Shown here one piece after another: positions 10,874 to 28,934 of a DNA stretch of 28,980 bases. This stretch comes from a virus. The translations under genes were made by a program, and so were the position numbers. Position 1 is the stretch's first letter, and every line of letters starts with the position of its first letter. The DNA lies in the IMG/VR virus record IMGVR_UViG_3300029268_000104, positions 1-28,980 of that record. One strand, 5' to 3'. The notes under the pieces were generated by a model. The model was not told the DNA's origin and searched no databases. It saw nothing but the letters and a program-made list of their open reading frames with translations.

Positions 10874-10946
10874 CGCGCGGTAGAGCAGATGGTAGCTCGC
10901 CAGGTTCATACCCTGGAGGCCGTTGGTTCAAATCCAGCCCGCGCTA
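10874..10946 (+). tRNA. tRNA-Met (anticodon CAT)
   Basis: A full cloverleaf can be drawn: acceptor stem 10874-10880 with 10939-10945 (six pairs, position 1-72 unpaired C/T), D arm 883-886/895-898 (GAGC/GCTC), anticodon stem 10900-10904/10912-10916 with loop TTCATAC and anticodon CAT at 10907-10909, 5-nt variable loop, and T arm GTTGG/CCAGC around TTCAAAT. The 3' end reads A-CAA, so CCA is not encoded. The unpaired 1-72 position is typical of initiator tRNA, but the anticodon stem lacks the three G-C pairs of initiators; a lysidine-modified Ile(CAU) tRNA is a further option. Confidence 0.88.
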
Positions 10947-10985
10947 CAAAAATTAGTCAAATTCAATTTTTGAATACCTGAAAAG

Positions 10986-22601: not shown

Positions 22602-22796
22602 AAAAATCACAAAAAAATGGCAACAAAAATTAAAACCGCGTTAGACCTGCAGAAGAATGAACTTCAGAATGCAGTTATTGGAAATCTCTCTATTGTTTTA
22701 CACTAAAAAAATCACAAAAAAATGGCAACAAAAATTAAAACCGCGTTAGACCTGCAGAAGAATGAACTTCAGAATGCAGTTATTGGAAATCTCTCT
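22587..22796 (+). repeat. Exact 105-bp tandem duplication at a gene junction
   Basis: Two identical head-to-tail copies (22587-22691 and 22692-22796). Each contains the last four codons and stop of the upstream gene and the first 25 codons of the fibre gene. The upstream copy thus leaves a decoy start (ATG 22617) that stops after 29 codons. Confidence 0.92.
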
Positions 22797-23801
22797 GCAG
22801 CCCCAGCCGACCCTATTAAAGGTCAGAAGTATTTCGATACGACTGATAATTTTGAAAAATACTGGAACGGGACGGCGTGGGTGAAATCAGGTGATCCTTC
22901 TGGTATTGATCATACCTCTCTGCTCAACAAAGGGACCAATACACACGCTCAGATCGACACACATCTCGCCTCAACATCGAATCCTCACGGCGTCACGAAA
23001 ACACAGGTGTCGCTTGGCAGCGTGGATAACGTGCAGCAAATGCCACTCTCTTATCTTGATACAGATGGCACCCTGGCTGGCAATAGTGACGTAAAGGTTG
23101 GCAGCCAAAAGGCTGTTAAAACCTATGTTGATACAAAAATAGCGGGTTATGCGGGGGCTCTGATCTACAAGGGGACGATCGATGGCAGCCGGTCGCTGGC
23201 GGCTCAGGGCATCACGGCGATTGTTAAAGGCGAATATTATAAGGTATCGGTTGCCGGTACATCCACCGGGATCAACACCCCATCCTCGACAGGACTGGCA
23301 GTGGGGGATCAGGTAATTGCAAATGTGAGTAAAACCTCAGGGATCGCCGGGACGGACTTCGACGGCATTGACAATACTGAAGCTGCCGACCTGGTCAGAA
23401 CTGCCGCCTCACAAACGTTGACAAACAAGGGGATTGACGCTGATAACAATACGCTTTCAAATATCGAAACTGACAACCTCAAAGCTGGAGTATTATCGAC
23501 TGATATCGCTACAGGCGCATCAGACACTAAGATTCCGAGTGCGTTGGCTGCAAAGACTTACGCTGACTCTGTTGCAGGAGCAAAAAGTAAAAAGTACGTG
23601 GGATCGATATCCTCTGCCTTAACTGGAACAATAACTGCCGCAACACATGGCTGCGGGACATCGGTTAATGTTCAGGTATTTGAAACCATTGCCGGAGTTC
23701 GTTCAGTTATTATCGTTGACATCTCTTTGAATTCATCCGGAAACGTAACCTGGACCAGCTCCACGGTAATTACTGCTGGAGAAGTTTGCATTATAGGTTA
23801 A
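22722..23801 (+). CDS. Tail fibre protein
   Basis: A 359-aa fibre. I start at ATG 22722, in the second copy of the tandem duplication; an identical ATG at 22617 leads to a stop after 29 codons. Modules include KGQKYFDTTDNFEKYWNGTAWV near 34-55 (a repeated motif in phage fibres), the HAQIDTHLASTSNPHGVTKTQVSLGSVDNV stretch near 76-105 (typical tail fibre repeat), and QKAVKTYVDTKIA. The C-terminal 100 residues are strand-rich with alternating Thr/Val, and end with a strand cap. It sits directly before the DGR target, so it probably carries the variable tip. Confidence 0.78.
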   Translation: MATKIKTALDLQKNELQNAVIGNLSAAPADPIKGQKYFDTTDNFEKYWNGTAWVKSGDPSGIDHTSLLNKGTNTHAQIDTHLASTSNPHGVTKTQVSLGSVDNVQQMPLSYLDTDGTLAGNSDVKVGSQKAVKTYVDTKIAGYAGALIYKGTIDGSRSLAAQGITAIVKGEYYKVSVAGTSTGINTPSSTGLAVGDQVIANVSKTSGIAGTDFDGIDNTEAADLVRTAASQTLTNKGIDADNNTLSNIETDNLKAGVLSTDIATGASDTKIPSALAAKTYADSVAGAKSKKYVGSISSALTGTITAATHGCGTSVNVQVFETIAGVRSVIIVDISLNSSGNVTWTSSTVITAGEVCIIG

Positions 23802-23821: not shown

Positions 23822-25615
23822 ATGAAAGTAAAAACTCCAATTGATATTCCTGCCCGTAGCGCCAAGCCATCAGCTCCGGCATCGGGTGACATGAGGCTGA
23901 GTGTTGATTCAGCAGGAGCGATGTATCTCCAAGATTCAACCGGCAACGAAATGGCTATTCGTCAAGGTGTGTACATTAATCACATAGGCGAGCCCGGAAA
24001 GAGAGGTTTTGGACAGGGAATCTGTCCCTCTGACGTAATAGCGAAGGCCAACGCAATCTATGGATTTTCAAAAATTGTTTCCCTAAATGGAACATTTGAT
24101 ATCAATAGCGCAAATTACGGCAATTACCAAATTGTTGATGACGAATCAATTATGGTTTGGATCCCCTTTTTCTGGCAGAAAAAGAACGCGGATAACACAG
24201 GGGATGTAAAGTATGAAGGATATTTTGCTGATGAAGCTGCTGCCAATGCCGCAGGTTATTCAGTTCCTCGGGGATTCATTGATGGGGGCGTGATACAAAG
24301 GGGTATCTTCATTGACAAATATAAGCCAAGCTTGACCGGAATTTACAGTGGTGATCTCAACATAAATGGATCTAATATTGATAAAGGTTGTGCAAGTTCC
24401 ATAAAGGGTGGTAATCCGATTTCGTCAAGCGCTGAATCTCTCAGGAAAAGAGATGGGGAGATGGATAATCATTATGCCGGGTCCTTCTCAAATTGTTATC
24501 AGTATAATAGTGACGCTCCGCCTGAAAATAATTATTCTGGAGCAATTAGAGCGGCAAGAAGCAGGGGGTTGATTTTTCACTGCGTAACTATTTTTTCAGG
24601 CGAATTAATACGGTTATTAACCCATGTACATAAGCAAGCGGCGATAGGAACATTGCATTGCGCCTGGAATGATATCGCTCCTGCGGAACCAAGAGGAAAC
24701 AATAATTATGGCGTTGATTATTATGATAGTGGGGTGATATATGCTCCATGTGACGACTTCTATTGGGGCAACAAAACATCCCCAATGGAAGCTCGAAAAA
24801 ATGGAGGAGGAACACCATTCGCGAAAACCACGCATAATGGACAGGACTGCGGGATCTGCATTGATTGCAATCAGTGGGAATTTCAACCTGGTGTGACGGC
24901 AAAAGTTGAATCTGCTCAGGCGATTGTTTCGATCACAAGGGCAACTCAAGTAGTTGTCACTGTCACAGATGCAGCTGCCACGAATTCTAACTATGCAAAT
25001 GGTAAACCAGTTATGATTCTTGGTTCCTTGACAGGAGAGTGGGCTACCCTATTGAAGAATAAATTTTTCACGATTAGCGATATTTCCGGAAATACATTTA
25101 AGATTAAGGACAAAGATGGAAATTATGTCAATTCAGCAGCGCTAAGCGCGGCATACAGCAGTGGCCTTACTTCGACTACAGGTAAATTTTATATCCTATC
25201 CGAATATACCAAAATGACGGATGTTACCGGAGGGAACACCTTGGGGACGGATTTATGGGGTGCAACAGGCATTAATGCTATGTACGAAGAGATCGATGTT
25301 GATTTCAATGGACCAGTCGGAGGACAATATGGAAATGGTTCAAATCAGGTATTTTCAGGTGAGGTTAATCGCACAACCAATGCTTACAAACTCTCAGCTG
25401 CAGGGTTGCCGATGAATCGTCTTTCCTACGGATCAGGAACGGCCATTATGGGTTCTGATTATTGTTATTCGTATCTCGTTAACGAACTTGCGCCTCTCGC
25501 TTTTGGCGCTTGGGGTAACACTCAATACGTCGGTGTGGGCGCGCGCGGTTGGGATAGGCCTCGGACGGGCTCCATCAGGGATGTCTCGTTTCGGTGTGGC
25601 CTTTTCATTGGATAA
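23822..25615 (+). CDS. DGR target: variable receptor-binding protein with C-type-lectin-like end
   Basis: A 597-aa protein. The N-terminal 50 residues (TPIDIPARSAKPSAPASGDMRLSVDSAGAMYLQDSTG) look like a fibre attachment module. From about residue 60 to the end it resembles the C-type-lectin / formylglycine-generating-like fold of DGR variable proteins such as Mtd, with an insert of about 100 residues near 365-465 that looks like a separate beta domain. The last 42 residues are encoded by the variable repeat and end ...VSFRCGLFIG, the usual VR terminus. Of the 11 template Asn codons, ten now encode Ala, Gly, Thr, Gly, Asp, Arg, Pro, Gly, Ile and Asp, the exposed ligand-binding positions. It is predicted to bind host surface molecules. 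Confidence 0.88.
   Translation: MKVKTPIDIPARSAKPSAPASGDMRLSVDSAGAMYLQDSTGNEMAIRQGVYINHIGEPGKRGFGQGICPSDVIAKANAIYGFSKIVSLNGTFDINSANYGNYQIVDDESIMVWIPFFWQKKNADNTGDVKYEGYFADEAAANAAGYSVPRGFIDGGVIQRGIFIDKYKPSLTGIYSGDLNINGSNIDKGCASSIKGGNPISSSAESLRKRDGEMDNHYAGSFSNCYQYNSDAPPENNYSGAIRAARSRGLIFHCVTIFSGELIRLLTHVHKQAAIGTLHCAWNDIAPAEPRGNNNYGVDYYDSGVIYAPCDDFYWGNKTSPMEARKNGGGTPFAKTTHNGQDCGICIDCNQWEFQPGVTAKVESAQAIVSITRATQVVVTVTDAAATNSNYANGKPVMILGSLTGEWATLLKNKFFTISDISGNTFKIKDKDGNYVNSAALSAAYSSGLTSTTGKFYILSEYTKMTDVTGGNTLGTDLWGATGINAMYEEIDVDFNGPVGGQYGNGSNQVFSGEVNRTTNAYKLSAAGLPMNRLSYGSGTAIMGSDYCYSYLVNELAPLAFGAWGNTQYVGVGARGWDRPRTGSIRDVSFRCGLFIG
25488..25599 (+). repeat. DGR variable repeat (VR)
   Basis: 112 bp aligned without gaps to the template repeat at 26070-26181 (offset 582 bp). 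There are 18 differences, 16 at positions where the template has A (11 changed to G, 4 to C, 1 to T), and two elsewhere (25530 T for C, 25558 G for C). The first 20 bp and last 19 bp contain no difference. Confidence 0.95.
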
Positions 25616-25620
25616 ATGTC

Positions 25621-25642
25621 GCCGCGATCGGTAGAGAGCGGC
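25621..25642 (+). other. Candidate hairpin downstream of VR
   Basis: GCCGC (25621-25625) pairs with GCGGC (25638-25642) around a 12-nt loop, 21 bp past the VR end and 5 bp past the stop. In the Bordetella phage DGR, a GC-rich hairpin or cruciform just after VR raises mutagenic homing. Here the stem is shorter and the loop larger, and no T run follows, so a terminator is less likely. Confidence 0.35.
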
Positions 25643-25674
25643 ACCATGTTTTGTTCTTTGACATCTTGAAAAAG

Positions 25675-25705
25675 TTTGCGCATAAATGAAAATGCTCTAT
25701 TTTTG
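25675..25705 (+). promoter_or_regulatory. Promoter of the DGR cassette
   Basis: TTTG (25675-25678), a 19-bp spacer and TATTTTTG (25698-25705) match the Bacteroidetes consensus TTTG-N19-TAnnTTTG at every position. Transcription should start around 25709-25712, at or just before ATG 25712 of the Avd gene, so the mRNA may be leaderless. The transcript would also cover TR and RT. Confidence 0.7.
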
Positions 25706-25711
25706 CCGGGC

Positions 25712-26053
25712 ATGTCTGAATATTTGCTCATTGAGAAGAAAATCCGCGACATGATATTGTACAACAATATCATGCTTCGTCAATTTCCTAAGTTTGAGAA
25801 ATTCTTGTTGGCGGCCAAAATCCGGGAACTTGGTTATGAGATTTTGGAATTGGCAGTTGCAGCGAATAAGCGATACATCAAAAAGACTTCGTTTTCAGAA
25901 TTTGATGTAAAGCATGAAACTCTCAGGCAGCTGATAAATCTCGCATTTGAACTGAAGTACATCGATAGTCAAAAGCATCGAGTGAGTCAGCTCAATGTCG
26001 ACGAGATTGGAAGGATGCTTGGATCGTGGATGAAGATTCAGAATGTAGGGTGA
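25712..26053 (+). CDS. avd: DGR accessory variability determinant (Avd)
   Basis: I start at ATG 25712 (113 aa, MSEYLLIEKK...); the in-frame ATG at 25676 lies inside the promoter. It is an all-helical protein with about four helices, rich in Lys and Arg, and carries the Avd pattern: an N-terminal helix, FPKFEKFLLAAKIRELGYEILELAVAANKR, and a C-terminal helix after a short break. Avd proteins form a pentameric four-helix-bundle barrel that binds the reverse transcriptase and the template RNA, and are needed for mutagenic homing. The gene lies between VR and TR, the usual layout. Confidence 0.85.
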   Translation: MSEYLLIEKKIRDMILYNNIMLRQFPKFEKFLLAAKIRELGYEILELAVAANKRYIKKTSFSEFDVKHETLRQLINLAFELKYIDSQKHRVSQLNVDEIGRMLGSWMKIQNVG

Positions 26054-26069
26054 TGCTTGAATATGCATG

Positions 26070-26181
26070 TTGCGCCTCTCGCTTTTGGCAATTGGAATAA
26101 CAATCAATACGCCGGTGTGGGCGCGCGCAATTGGAATAACAATCGAACGAACTCCAACAGGAATGTCTCGTTTCGGTGTGG
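26070..26181 (+). repeat. DGR template repeat (TR)
   Basis: 112 bp, the invariant template copied into VR. It carries 28 adenines, most of them in 11 AAY codons (read in the VR frame), so mutating A can reach many residues without stop codons; 10 of these 11 have changed in VR. It lies 16 bp after the Avd stop. A 73-codon open frame through it is not a gene. Confidence 0.95.
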
Positions 26182-26202
26182 ACTCTTGACATCAGCCGTA
26201 AG

Positions 26203-26268
26203 CCGGGATCCTAATTGGATACCGGAGTGGGCACAGTTAAAAGGGAGCGTCATCCTTGTCCTTTTGAC
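26203..26268 (+). ncRNA. Structured spacer of the DGR RNA (TR to RT)
   Basis: Two stem-loops lie between TR and RT. The first pairs 26203-26211 with 26217-26225 (eight pairs, one G/A mismatch) over a TAATT loop. The second pairs 26236-26244 with 26260-26268 (nine pairs, one wobble) over a 15-nt loop. In the Bordetella phage DGR, RNA in this spacer is required for cDNA priming and RT/Avd binding. The role here is inferred from position. Confidence 0.5.
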
Positions 26269-26336
26269 AAAAATCTAAGAGCGTGGTCATTCTGGTAGCA
26301 GTATGCGAAAGTCTGGCCACCTCGCCTTTTATAGAT

Positions 26337-27341
26337 ATGAAGAGAGCAGGACGACTTAAATCAAAATGGTGTAACTACGATGTTTTATTAAAAGCGTGGT
26401 ACCAAGTAAAGGAGGATAAAAGTTACTTCTTTACGATCCTTGCCTATGAGGAAAATCTGGCTGTAAACCTGTCGAATTTACTAATTGTTCTGGAAAATGG
26501 CACATACCAGCCCAGGCCCCTTCGGTCGTTTTACGTATATGATCCAAAGACAAGGCTGATTGAAGCTCCATACCTTGAAGATCGTATTGTCCAGCATGCA
26601 CTGCTAATAGTGATCAGAGACATCGTTGAGTCGCAGTTTATTGATCAGACGTTCGCCTGCATAAAAGAACGAGGGACGCACGCCAGCAGTGATTACTTGG
26701 TATCAAAACTTGTCAACTACAAAAACAAGGGGTATTTTCTGAAGGTTGACATTGAAAAGTTCTTCTATACTGTTGATCACTTGACACTGGAGGCACAGTA
26801 TCTTAAAAGGATAAAGTGCATATACACCCTTGATCTAATCCAGAAGTTTCATAAAAATAACATTGGTATCGGTTTGCCGCTTGGTAATGTATCCTCACAA
26901 CTGTCAGCAAACCTGGCTTTAAATCCTATCGATCATTTTATAAAAAGGGAACTCAAAATAAGGCATTACGTAAGATACATGGACGACATGATCCTGTTAT
27001 CAATGTCGAAAGAGCAACTCCGGGATGCTGAAAAAAAGATCATCGTTGAAGTCAGAAAATTGAATTTGAACATCAATGCCAAGACGAAAATATCACAAAT
27101 AAAGCATGGTATCGATTTCGTTGGATATCGCACCTGGTATAACCGTAGATTGATCAGGAAGCGGTCTTTATATAAAATTAAGCGCAAACTCAAACAAGAT
27201 CCGAATTTGAACCGTATTGCAAGTTATATGAGTCATGCGATGCGGACGAATTCTTTAATTTATATAATAAAGCAGATTCTTAAGGTAGTACCGGAACGTC
27301 GCGAATGGATTGAAAATTGGTATAAAAAACATAAAAAGTGA
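26337..27341 (+). CDS. DGR reverse transcriptase
   Basis: I start at ATG 26337 (334 aa, MKRAGRLKSK...), the usual opening of DGR enzymes; a GTG at 26283 would add 18 residues of spacer sequence. Motifs in order: YLEDRIVQHAL (about 79-89), a first catalytic Asp in FLKVDIEKFF (D138), GLPLGNVSSQLSANL (179-193), with the DGR-type LGNVSSQ in place of the QG..SP of other reverse transcriptases, YMDD (214-217) and HGIDFVGYR (257-265). It makes cDNA from the TR RNA, misreading adenines. No intron-type maturase domain. It stops 3 bp before the next gene. Confidence 0.95.
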   Translation: MKRAGRLKSKWCNYDVLLKAWYQVKEDKSYFFTILAYEENLAVNLSNLLIVLENGTYQPRPLRSFYVYDPKTRLIEAPYLEDRIVQHALLIVIRDIVESQFIDQTFACIKERGTHASSDYLVSKLVNYKNKGYFLKVDIEKFFYTVDHLTLEAQYLKRIKCIYTLDLIQKFHKNNIGIGLPLGNVSSQLSANLALNPIDHFIKRELKIRHYVRYMDDMILLSMSKEQLRDAEKKIIVEVRKLNLNINAKTKISQIKHGIDFVGYRTWYNRRLIRKRSLYKIKRKLKQDPNLNRIASYMSHAMRTNSLIYIIKQILKVVPERREWIENWYKKHKK

Positions 27342-27344
27342 CCA

Positions 27345-27764
27345 ATGAAATATTTTAAATCAAAAGTTGTCAACGAGGCAGGAGAGATCCTCGCCTTTAT
27401 TGCACCTGAATTTCCAATGAATGAATCTCCCAGGCATCTATTATATGAGCGCCAGGGAGATATTGAAATTCACGGATTGCCTGATGATGTCGATCAGGAA
27501 GAGGTGCTATCTATCCAGCACGCACAATGCGAGGTTGAGTCTGTTGACTTCGCCGATATTGAAGATGTTCTTAAATCCTGCAGGTTGTACAAAGAGATCA
27601 ATGCTCAGATCGAAAGCCGGATCCGTAAACGTTATAGTGTCGGGGACGAGTTTTCAATGGTGAAACTCGAAACCACCGATCCCGAGAGGATCGCCTATCA
27701 ACAGGTAGTTGATGATTTTCGTGAAATCGGGCGATTGCAAAAAGTTGCGCTTGGTCTAAAGTAA
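27345..27764 (+). CDS. Small phage tail-region protein, unknown function
   Basis: A 139-aa acidic protein directly after the RT. N-terminal KYFKSKVVNEAGEILAFIAPEFP and the C-terminal half, with IRKRYSVGDEFSMVKLETTDPERIAYQQVVDDFREIGR, resemble the small XkdW-like proteins found after fibre genes in several phages. The function of those is not known; a fibre-assembly role is possible. The gene spacing suggests it is co-transcribed with the DGR or late operon. Confidence 0.6.
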   Translation: MKYFKSKVVNEAGEILAFIAPEFPMNESPRHLLYERQGDIEIHGLPDDVDQEEVLSIQHAQCEVESVDFADIEDVLKSCRLYKEINAQIESRIRKRYSVGDEFSMVKLETTDPERIAYQQVVDDFREIGRLQKVALGLK

Positions 27765-27824
27765 TAGTCTTTCGAATAAGGGTCGATGTTGAGGTAAGCA
27801 CTAAACATTTAAACCCTTGTAAAA

Positions 27825-28637
27825 ATGGAAGAGAAAATTAAGACCCCCATTACCTACTATGGAGGCAAACAACAAATGTTGAGGCACATTCTGCCTTTGA
27901 TCCCTAATCATAATTTGTATTGTGAACCCTTTTGTGGTGGAGCTGCAGTATATTGGTCTAAGCCTCCCTCCAAGGTCGAGGTGATCAATGATATTAACGA
28001 CGAATTAATCAACTTTTATTTGGTGTTGCAAACGCGTTTTACAGCACTAAATAAGCTTGTTAAATGCACCCTGCACAGCCGGAAGACGCACCGAAAAGCA
28101 TGGGAGATTTATCAGCATCCGGAAGGTCATGATCAGGTTGAGAGGGCCTGGGCATTGTGGGTGCTAAGTACTCAGTCATTTGTGAGTAAATTCTCCGGAT
28201 CCTGGGGCTTCGACAAATCAAACGGATCTGTTGCCCGCAAGGTCATGAATAAGAAAAGGCAATTCACTGAAGTATTAAAGGAGCGCATTGAATTGACGCA
28301 AATTGAGTGCCGCAAGGCCCTTGATGTTATCCGCCTCTACGACACACCTGAAACGTTCTTTTACCTTGACCCACCCTATCCTGATACCAATCAGGGCCAT
28401 TATGGAGGTTATTCAACTGCTGATCTTGAGGAGCTTCTTTTGAAGCTTAGCAGTATTAAAGGCAAGTTCCTACTCAGTAACTATCCGCAAGAAATAATCA
28501 ATGACTATTCATTGAAACATGATTGGAACCAGTTATCCTTTAAATTACCGATCTCGGTATCGAAGAAATCAGTAAAGCCAATGAAAATTGAGGTTTTGAC
28601 AGCTAATTATCCCATACAAAAAGGTAAGCCCGGCTGA
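27825..28637 (+). CDS. DNA adenine methylase (D12 class, Dam-like)
   Basis: A 270-aa methyltransferase. Motif X/I order: TYYGGKQ (10-16), CEPFCGGAAVYW (33-44) binding S-adenosylmethionine, then DPPY (182-185) as the catalytic motif for N6-adenine, with the target-recognition region between. No restriction enzyme lies beside it, so it is an orphan enzyme. It probably methylates phage DNA to avoid host restriction or to time gene expression. It occupies the right-end place where Mu carries its DNA-modification gene mom. Leader is A-rich (CTTGTAAAAATG). Confidence 0.9.
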   Translation: MEEKIKTPITYYGGKQQMLRHILPLIPNHNLYCEPFCGGAAVYWSKPPSKVEVINDINDELINFYLVLQTRFTALNKLVKCTLHSRKTHRKAWEIYQHPEGHDQVERAWALWVLSTQSFVSKFSGSWGFDKSNGSVARKVMNKKRQFTEVLKERIELTQIECRKALDVIRLYDTPETFFYLDPPYPDTNQGHYGGYSTADLEELLLKLSSIKGKFLLSNYPQEIINDYSLKHDWNQLSFKLPISVSKKSVKPMKIEVLTANYPIQKGKPG

Positions 28638-28646
28638 TAAAGAAAA

Positions 28647-28741
28647 TTGTCACATCTTCACTACCAAGGGGTGCGAGCACCCCGTTGCCGGGCTTATGTC
28701 GAATTGAGATAAGCCAATGGATTGTAGTGAAGATGTGACGG
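28647..28741 (-). ncRNA. Three-way-junction structure, candidate minus-strand RNA
   Basis: A perfect 16-bp inverted repeat, GTCACATCTTCACTAC (28649-28664) with GTAGTGAAGATGTGAC (28724-28739), encloses two more hairpins: 28668-28683 (6 bp, CGAG loop in plus-strand reading) and 28691-28715 (7 bp, 11-nt loop). On the minus strand, TATATTTG (28743-28750) fits a -7 box whose transcript would begin at the outer edge of the long stem and run through it to AATTTTCTTT, a weak U-rich tail. An RNA of about 95 nt with paired ends is predicted. Alternatives: a DNA cruciform or a terminator structure for the late operon. Confidence 0.45.
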
Positions 28742-28750: not shown

Positions 28751-28806
28751 ATAATAAATTGGTATGTAAAGCTCTTTTTTAGACCTTTGTCAAATTGATC
28801 AAAATT

Positions 28807-28844
28807 TATACAATTCGTTTTGAAAATCTATACATTTCGTTTTG
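28807..28844. repeat. Direct repeats with 22-bp period, candidate transposase-binding sites
   Basis: TATACAATTCGTTTTG (28807-28822) and TATACATTTCGTTTTG (28829-28844) differ at one position in 16 and are spaced 22 bp. A degenerate third copy may begin near 28850. Mu-like transposases bind tandem sites of about 22 bp at each phage end, so this may mark the right end of the genome. Operators for a repressor are the alternative. Confidence 0.5.
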
Positions 28845-28934
28845 CGATTTATATATTTGAGGTTTGGGTGATTATTTCCGATTAACAACAGGATAAAGGT
28901 ACAACATTGTTTCTGAGAACAAAATAGTTTTTTG

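Follow-up and report, generated by a model that had tools for sequence, protein, structure and literature searches.

A complete diversity-generating retroelement behind the tail fibre genes of a probable Mu-like transposable phage

Gene Content of the Locus

The window analysed here is a whole IMG/VR record of 28,980 bases. On its plus strand, the fibre genes are followed by a diversity-generating retroelement (DGR), an ORF of 139 aa and an adenine methyltransferase gene. The features discussed below are the following:

22722..23801, plus strand: tail fibre gene of 359 aa preceding the target gene, its product probably an adapter or a companion fibre (PHROG tail fibre, tblastn matches)
23822..25615, plus strand: DGR target gene, 597 aa, with a predicted C-type-lectin fold and a predicted inserted beta-barrel at residues 362-456
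25488-25599, plus strand: variable repeat (VR), residues 557-593 of the target
25600..25615, plus strand: IMH-like VR end, GGCCTTTTCATTGGATAA, from 25598, common to the VRs of four phages
25621..25642, plus strand: hairpin/cruciform element, GCCGC-GA-TC-GGTA-GA-GA-GCGGC, with a covarying outer stem and a GRNA loop
25712..26053, plus strand: avd, accessory variability determinant, 113 aa from ATG (Pfam, NCBIfam, start by comparison)
26070-26181, plus strand: template repeat (TR), with 28 adenines and 11 AAY codons in the target frame
26182..26336, plus strand: conserved non-coding stretch between TR and the reverse transcriptase gene, with the putative IMH* at its start
26337..27341, plus strand: DGR reverse transcriptase (RT), 334 aa, with LGNVSSQ and YMDD
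27345..27764, plus strand: ORF of 139 aa directly after the RT gene, 58% identical to its counterpart in the related record G002
27825..28637, plus strand: D12-class adenine DNA methyltransferase, the final gene on the right, as it is in Hankyphage p00 and in Bise

The original prediction of a complete DGR was borne out: target, VR, Avd, TR and RT are all present and follow one another in the order that it gave. Avd matched Pfam bAvd (3.5e-25) and passed the NCBIfam DivGenRetAVD cut-off. Profile searches with the RT gave matches to Pfam RVT_1 (2.5e-21) and to the PHROG RT family (1.3e-92). Both motifs that had been read in it, LGNVSSQ (xGxxxSQ) and YMDD (the catalytic YxDD), are intact in an unbroken gene, and the protein clusters with DGR RTs. 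Judged against the genes of relatives, the ATG at 25712 is the likely start of Avd, and the RT most likely starts at the ATG at 26337 (334 aa) rather than as the GTG-started ORF from 26283. The 139-aa ORF had no family match in Pfam or NCBIfam, and an unnamed ORF occupies the equivalent position in p00.

Phage Identity and Genome Layout

The minus strand of the window carries genes for neck, Mu F-like head protein, portal, adaptor, TerL and TerS, and the plus strand those for protease, capsid, endolysin, holin, contractile sheath, tape measure, baseplate and fibres (PHROG and Pfam matches). Hankyphage p00 (BK010646), a transposable phage of Bacteroides, shares these head and packaging genes, and their order, with the window; in p00 the MuA/MuB region is situated left of the corresponding part. 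No MuA/MuB transposase was found in the window, which is without that genome end, and MuA-like proteins were found in 17 related records, G004 and G007 among them. The query in this search was the p00 MuA protein; Pfam DDE_2 matched nothing, controls included. Given the p00-like layout and the MuA of the relatives, the window most likely comes from a Mu-like transposable phage, of which it covers the right-hand 29 kb. The Mu-like identity claimed originally is thus upheld indirectly, through gene order and relatives, with the transposase end itself missing from the window. The host most likely belongs to the Bacteroidota, because the nearest named TerL matches come from Bacteroides, Porphyromonas, Flavobacterium and Winogradskyella phages.

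A pair of 22-nt direct repeats (TATACAATTCGTTTTG / TATACATTTCGTTTTG) and, after it, GCGATTTATA lie at 28801-28856, and similar repeats were seen at the right ends of the related records G004, G007, L220 and L222. They are probably transposase-binding sites at the right end of the phage, with about 125 nt of host DNA beyond. Between the methyltransferase gene and these repeats there is also a perfect 16-nt inverted repeat (28649-28664 / 28724-28739, 59 nt apart). A tRNA-Met (CAT) gene at 10874-10947 lies among the late structural genes, with the capsid gene on one side and the lysis genes on the other; such a gene is also present in G001, G002 and G004.

The VR/TR Pair and Rewriting of VR from TR

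VR and TR align over 112 nt without gaps and differ at 18 positions, 16 of which are TR adenines (28 adenines in all). This focus on adenines is highly significant (hypergeometric p = 3.8e-10), and coordinates, length and counts were exactly those of the original prediction. Read from TR to VR, the adenine-site changes are 11 A>G, 4 A>C and 1 A>T; the two remaining differences are C>T at 25530 and C>G at 25558. Ten of the eleven AAY codons have been altered, to A, G, T, G, D, R, P, G, I and D, which reproduces every codon outcome listed beforehand. A-to-N change can vary 15 residues, and no TR codon in the target frame can become a stop in this way.

A second VR within the window was considered and rejected: no further VR-like copy exists on either strand, and the VR/TR pair is unique there. 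A pattern scan of IMG/VR for the VR/TR core found no copy. A chance repeat was likewise considered as the source of the pair and rejected.

We compared the window with its relatives. The TerL identity to the window was 95% for G001, 72% for G002, 67% for G004 and 61% for G007. The cassette is complete and identically ordered in G002, with identities of 81% for RT, 91% for Avd, 66% for the target, 58% for the following ORF and 76% for the methyltransferase. L128 and L129 both carry a target with VR and TR. The original prediction implied that VR differences in other genomes should fall on TR adenines, and this was the case for 18/18 in G002, 15/15 in L128 and 15/19 in L129 (64/70 when the window and the three relatives are pooled).

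Each VR also follows its own template at the bases that are not adenine. Between the window and G002, VR matches its own TR at all 10 columns where the two TRs differ at non-adenine bases. Among the four phages, the base of the own TR was found in VR in 126 of 128 non-adenine comparisons, which share columns and are not independent; full agreement was seen in 17 of the 18 variable columns. Because copies that mutate separately would not give a VR matching its own TR, these alignments indicate that VR is repeatedly rewritten from TR in this lineage, that is, by one-way transfer from TR to VR. The four-phage comparison thus provides evidence of repeated rewriting without any reads. Together, the adenine bias and the concerted evolution of TR and VR agree with the earlier claim that the DGR has acted on this target.

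Target-Site Signals and the DGR RNA

The IMH-like VR end GGCCTTTTCATTGGATAA differs from the TR flank GGACTCTTRACA. In the four phages the VR ends read GCCTTTTNATTGGATAA, against GACTCTTRACA at the TR. A boundary contrast between IMH and IMH* is familiar from the Bordetella phage BPP-1. By analogy with that phage, in which the contrast has been described (PMC3240598), the two flanks may act as IMH and IMH*.

A hairpin is located directly past the target stop codon. Its counterparts are GGCCAC-GA-GC-GGTA-GT-GA-GTGGCC in both G002 and L128 and GCCGC-GA-GC-GATA-GT-GA-GCGGC in L129. The loop conforms to the GRNA rule for the hairpin that follows VR (PMC3240598), and the outer stem covaries across the phages. 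However, a GA/GA step breaks the stem and departs from the BPP-1 rule, whereas the stems of BPP-1, Bise, ACA1 and the Helicobacter ganmani prophage are uninterrupted. The step probably forms sheared tandem G.A pairs.

The core GA-NN-GRNA-NN-GA (typically GAGCGATAGCGA) lies 3' of the target stop in most of the homologues that bear VR and TR (L133-L212). Counted over distinct VR/TR-bearing loci, the GA/GA core is present in 25/36 and the classic stem in 4/36, while shuffled sequence gave about 0.2% for each. The window contains one copy of the core on its two strands together. Folding of the region from one sequence alone was not significant, so the case for the hairpin is made by covariation and by the homologues rather than by single-sequence folding. 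A widespread target family with a variant hairpin offers a testable refinement of DGR target recognition.

The conserved stretch between TR and the RT gene is probably the 3' part of the DGR RNA, by analogy with BPP-1. Its fold is weakly supported (compensatory change in 3 of 40 pairs), and the DGR RNA region had no match in Rfam.

The Target Protein

Sequence searches of Pfam, PHROGs, NCBIfam and PDB gave no match for the target protein. A profile scan of viral contigs recovered 80 homologues, and an automatic scan detected an adenine-biased repeat in 41 of them. TR lies 538-670 nt downstream of VR in nearly all of these 41; in L177 the best repeat is elsewhere. A homologous DGR (target, Avd, TR and RT) was also observed at 5524-9130 of L012 (BK070120.1), the Helicobacter ganmani prophage, in which all genes of the region are annotated as hypothetical.

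An AlphaFold model built from 55 homologues reached a pLDDT of 85.6 and a pTM of 0.86, and it replaced an earlier model from four close homologues (pLDDT 28). The best structural match in PDB was TaqVP, the DGR protein of Thermus aquaticus (PDB 5vf4; Z 28.6 over 308 residues), yet the identity is 21%. It was followed by Mtd variants (Z about 12), TvpA (11.1) and formylglycine-generating enzymes (about 9-10). On the basis of the model, we therefore predict for the target the C-type-lectin fold seen in DGR targets, in which VR is C-terminal. TaqVP is without the beta-barrel that is inserted at residues 362-456 of the model; this insert is similar to a domain found in ubiquitin-activating (E1) enzymes and also to parts of phage tail tubes.

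The N-terminal domain of the G002 target is similar to the start of a predicted spike in G004 (37% identity over 116 residues, 3e-19). Because the two proteins begin with a common domain, the target protein is probably mounted on the tail, and it would then probably be the receptor-binding tip.

Proposed Mechanism and Alternative Explanations

We consider it very probable that a Mu-like transposable phage, whose host most likely belongs to the Bacteroidota, carries at its right end a complete DGR, which randomises the VR of a tail gene from the TR. In such a mechanism the RT, together with Avd, would reverse-transcribe the TR transcript. Random bases are inserted opposite adenines, as the footprint shows. 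The concerted evolution of TR and VR shows that the cDNA replaces VR at the 3' end of the tail gene. The IMH-like boundary and the downstream hairpin are both present and, if they function as in BPP-1, would guide this replacement. In the predicted C-type-lectin domain, as many as 15 residues may be randomised, and the phage may thereby change what it binds.

The pair could in principle be an ordinary duplication that drifted with no DGR activity. Beyond the existence of the repeats, nothing further speaks for this reading, and the adenine bias and the concerted evolution refute it: the differences are focused on adenines (p = 4e-10), relatives show the same arrangement and concerted evolution, 41 target homologues have adenine-biased repeats, in nearly all of which TR is 538-670 nt downstream, and an Avd gene sits between VR and TR. 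A frozen DGR, formerly active but with an old footprint and a VR that is now fixed, is a further alternative, which we regard as rather unlikely. The window holds a single VR state, and the two differences at TR cytosines are possibly later drift. However, none of RT, Avd, TR and hairpin is broken, all four are conserved, and a ratio of 16 adenine changes to 2 others argues for little drift since the last homing.

The DGR had also been proposed to have replaced the invertible G segment of Mu. G inversion is a trait of Mu and its close kin. What recommends the proposal is that each of the two systems works on tail fibres, close to the right-hand part of the genome. However, no serine recombinase (PF00239) was found in the window, in 22 relatives or in p00, while the positive controls matched, and the window has no long near-perfect inverted repeats bracketing the target. 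Relatives that are without a DGR carry fixed genes in the same slot: a long spike and a deacetylase-like gene in G004, a 1013-aa protein beside the methyltransferase in G007, and other fixed fibre genes in G006, a record that may be cut. With no recombinase, fixed genes in the slot and G inversion confined to the kin of Mu, an ancestral inversion system is not in evidence. We therefore do not retain this part of the original prediction and consider a succession from a G segment highly improbable.

Comparison with Known DGR Phages

BPP-1 is not a Mu-like phage. It shares with the window the order target-VR-Avd-TR-RT, a lectin-fold target and a GRNA-loop hairpin after VR, whereas its RT is about 34% identical and its hairpin stem is uninterrupted. 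Bise (Pseudomonas phage, OR683401) is Mu-like by annotation (transposase, Mor, Gam, Ner and sheath) and carries target, Avd, RT and adenine methylase genes at one end of the late genes, as in the window. Its VR and TR are also adenine-biased; in contrast, its RT is 36% identical to that of the window, its target is weakly similar and its hairpin is classic.

DGRs in Mu-like phages are already known, and the window is a further example. YPCBV-1, a Mu-like Chromohalobacter phage, has DGR Avd and RT (PMC9769972), although it belongs to another host group and its RT is 34% identical to that of the window. Mu-like prophages of Desulfovibrio piger also have DGRs (PMC12724379). Hankyphage is a transposable phage with a DGR (PMC6199706), and the activity of this DGR has been demonstrated by reads (PMC12135933). 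The window extends the set of transposable phages in which retrohoming diversifies a tail protein: its group is new, has a contractile tail and carries a DGR of another lineage.

The DGR of p00 lies in the same right-end slot and is followed, as in the window, by an ORF and an N6 methyltransferase. However, the identity is 31% for TerL and 28% for RT, the tail genes are unlike (tblastn), and the p00 target, of about 2200 aa, is dissimilar. In a tree of 62 RTs, with a midpoint root only, the RT of the window groups with those of its target homologues, within a set of 8 rows (100/100) and within a larger one of 41 rows (100/99) that includes Bise. The RT of p00 and ten RTs from records with a related TerL form a separate group (100/99).

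Two DGR lineages in an equivalent slot beside a common head block suggest separate acquisitions; a single ancient DGR that was later replaced is possible. A broader reading, to which we give an even chance, is that tropism modules dock in this tail slot: unrelated DGRs would have entered it independently on at least two occasions, fixed spikes would occupy it in other phages, and the variant GA/GA hairpin would mark the target in the DGR family of the window.

At 27771-28721 on the minus strand of G009, we observed an RT with an internal stop codon that groups with the Hankyphage-type RTs. It is located past the head genes, on the side opposite the tail genes, and is perhaps a decaying or relocated DGR.
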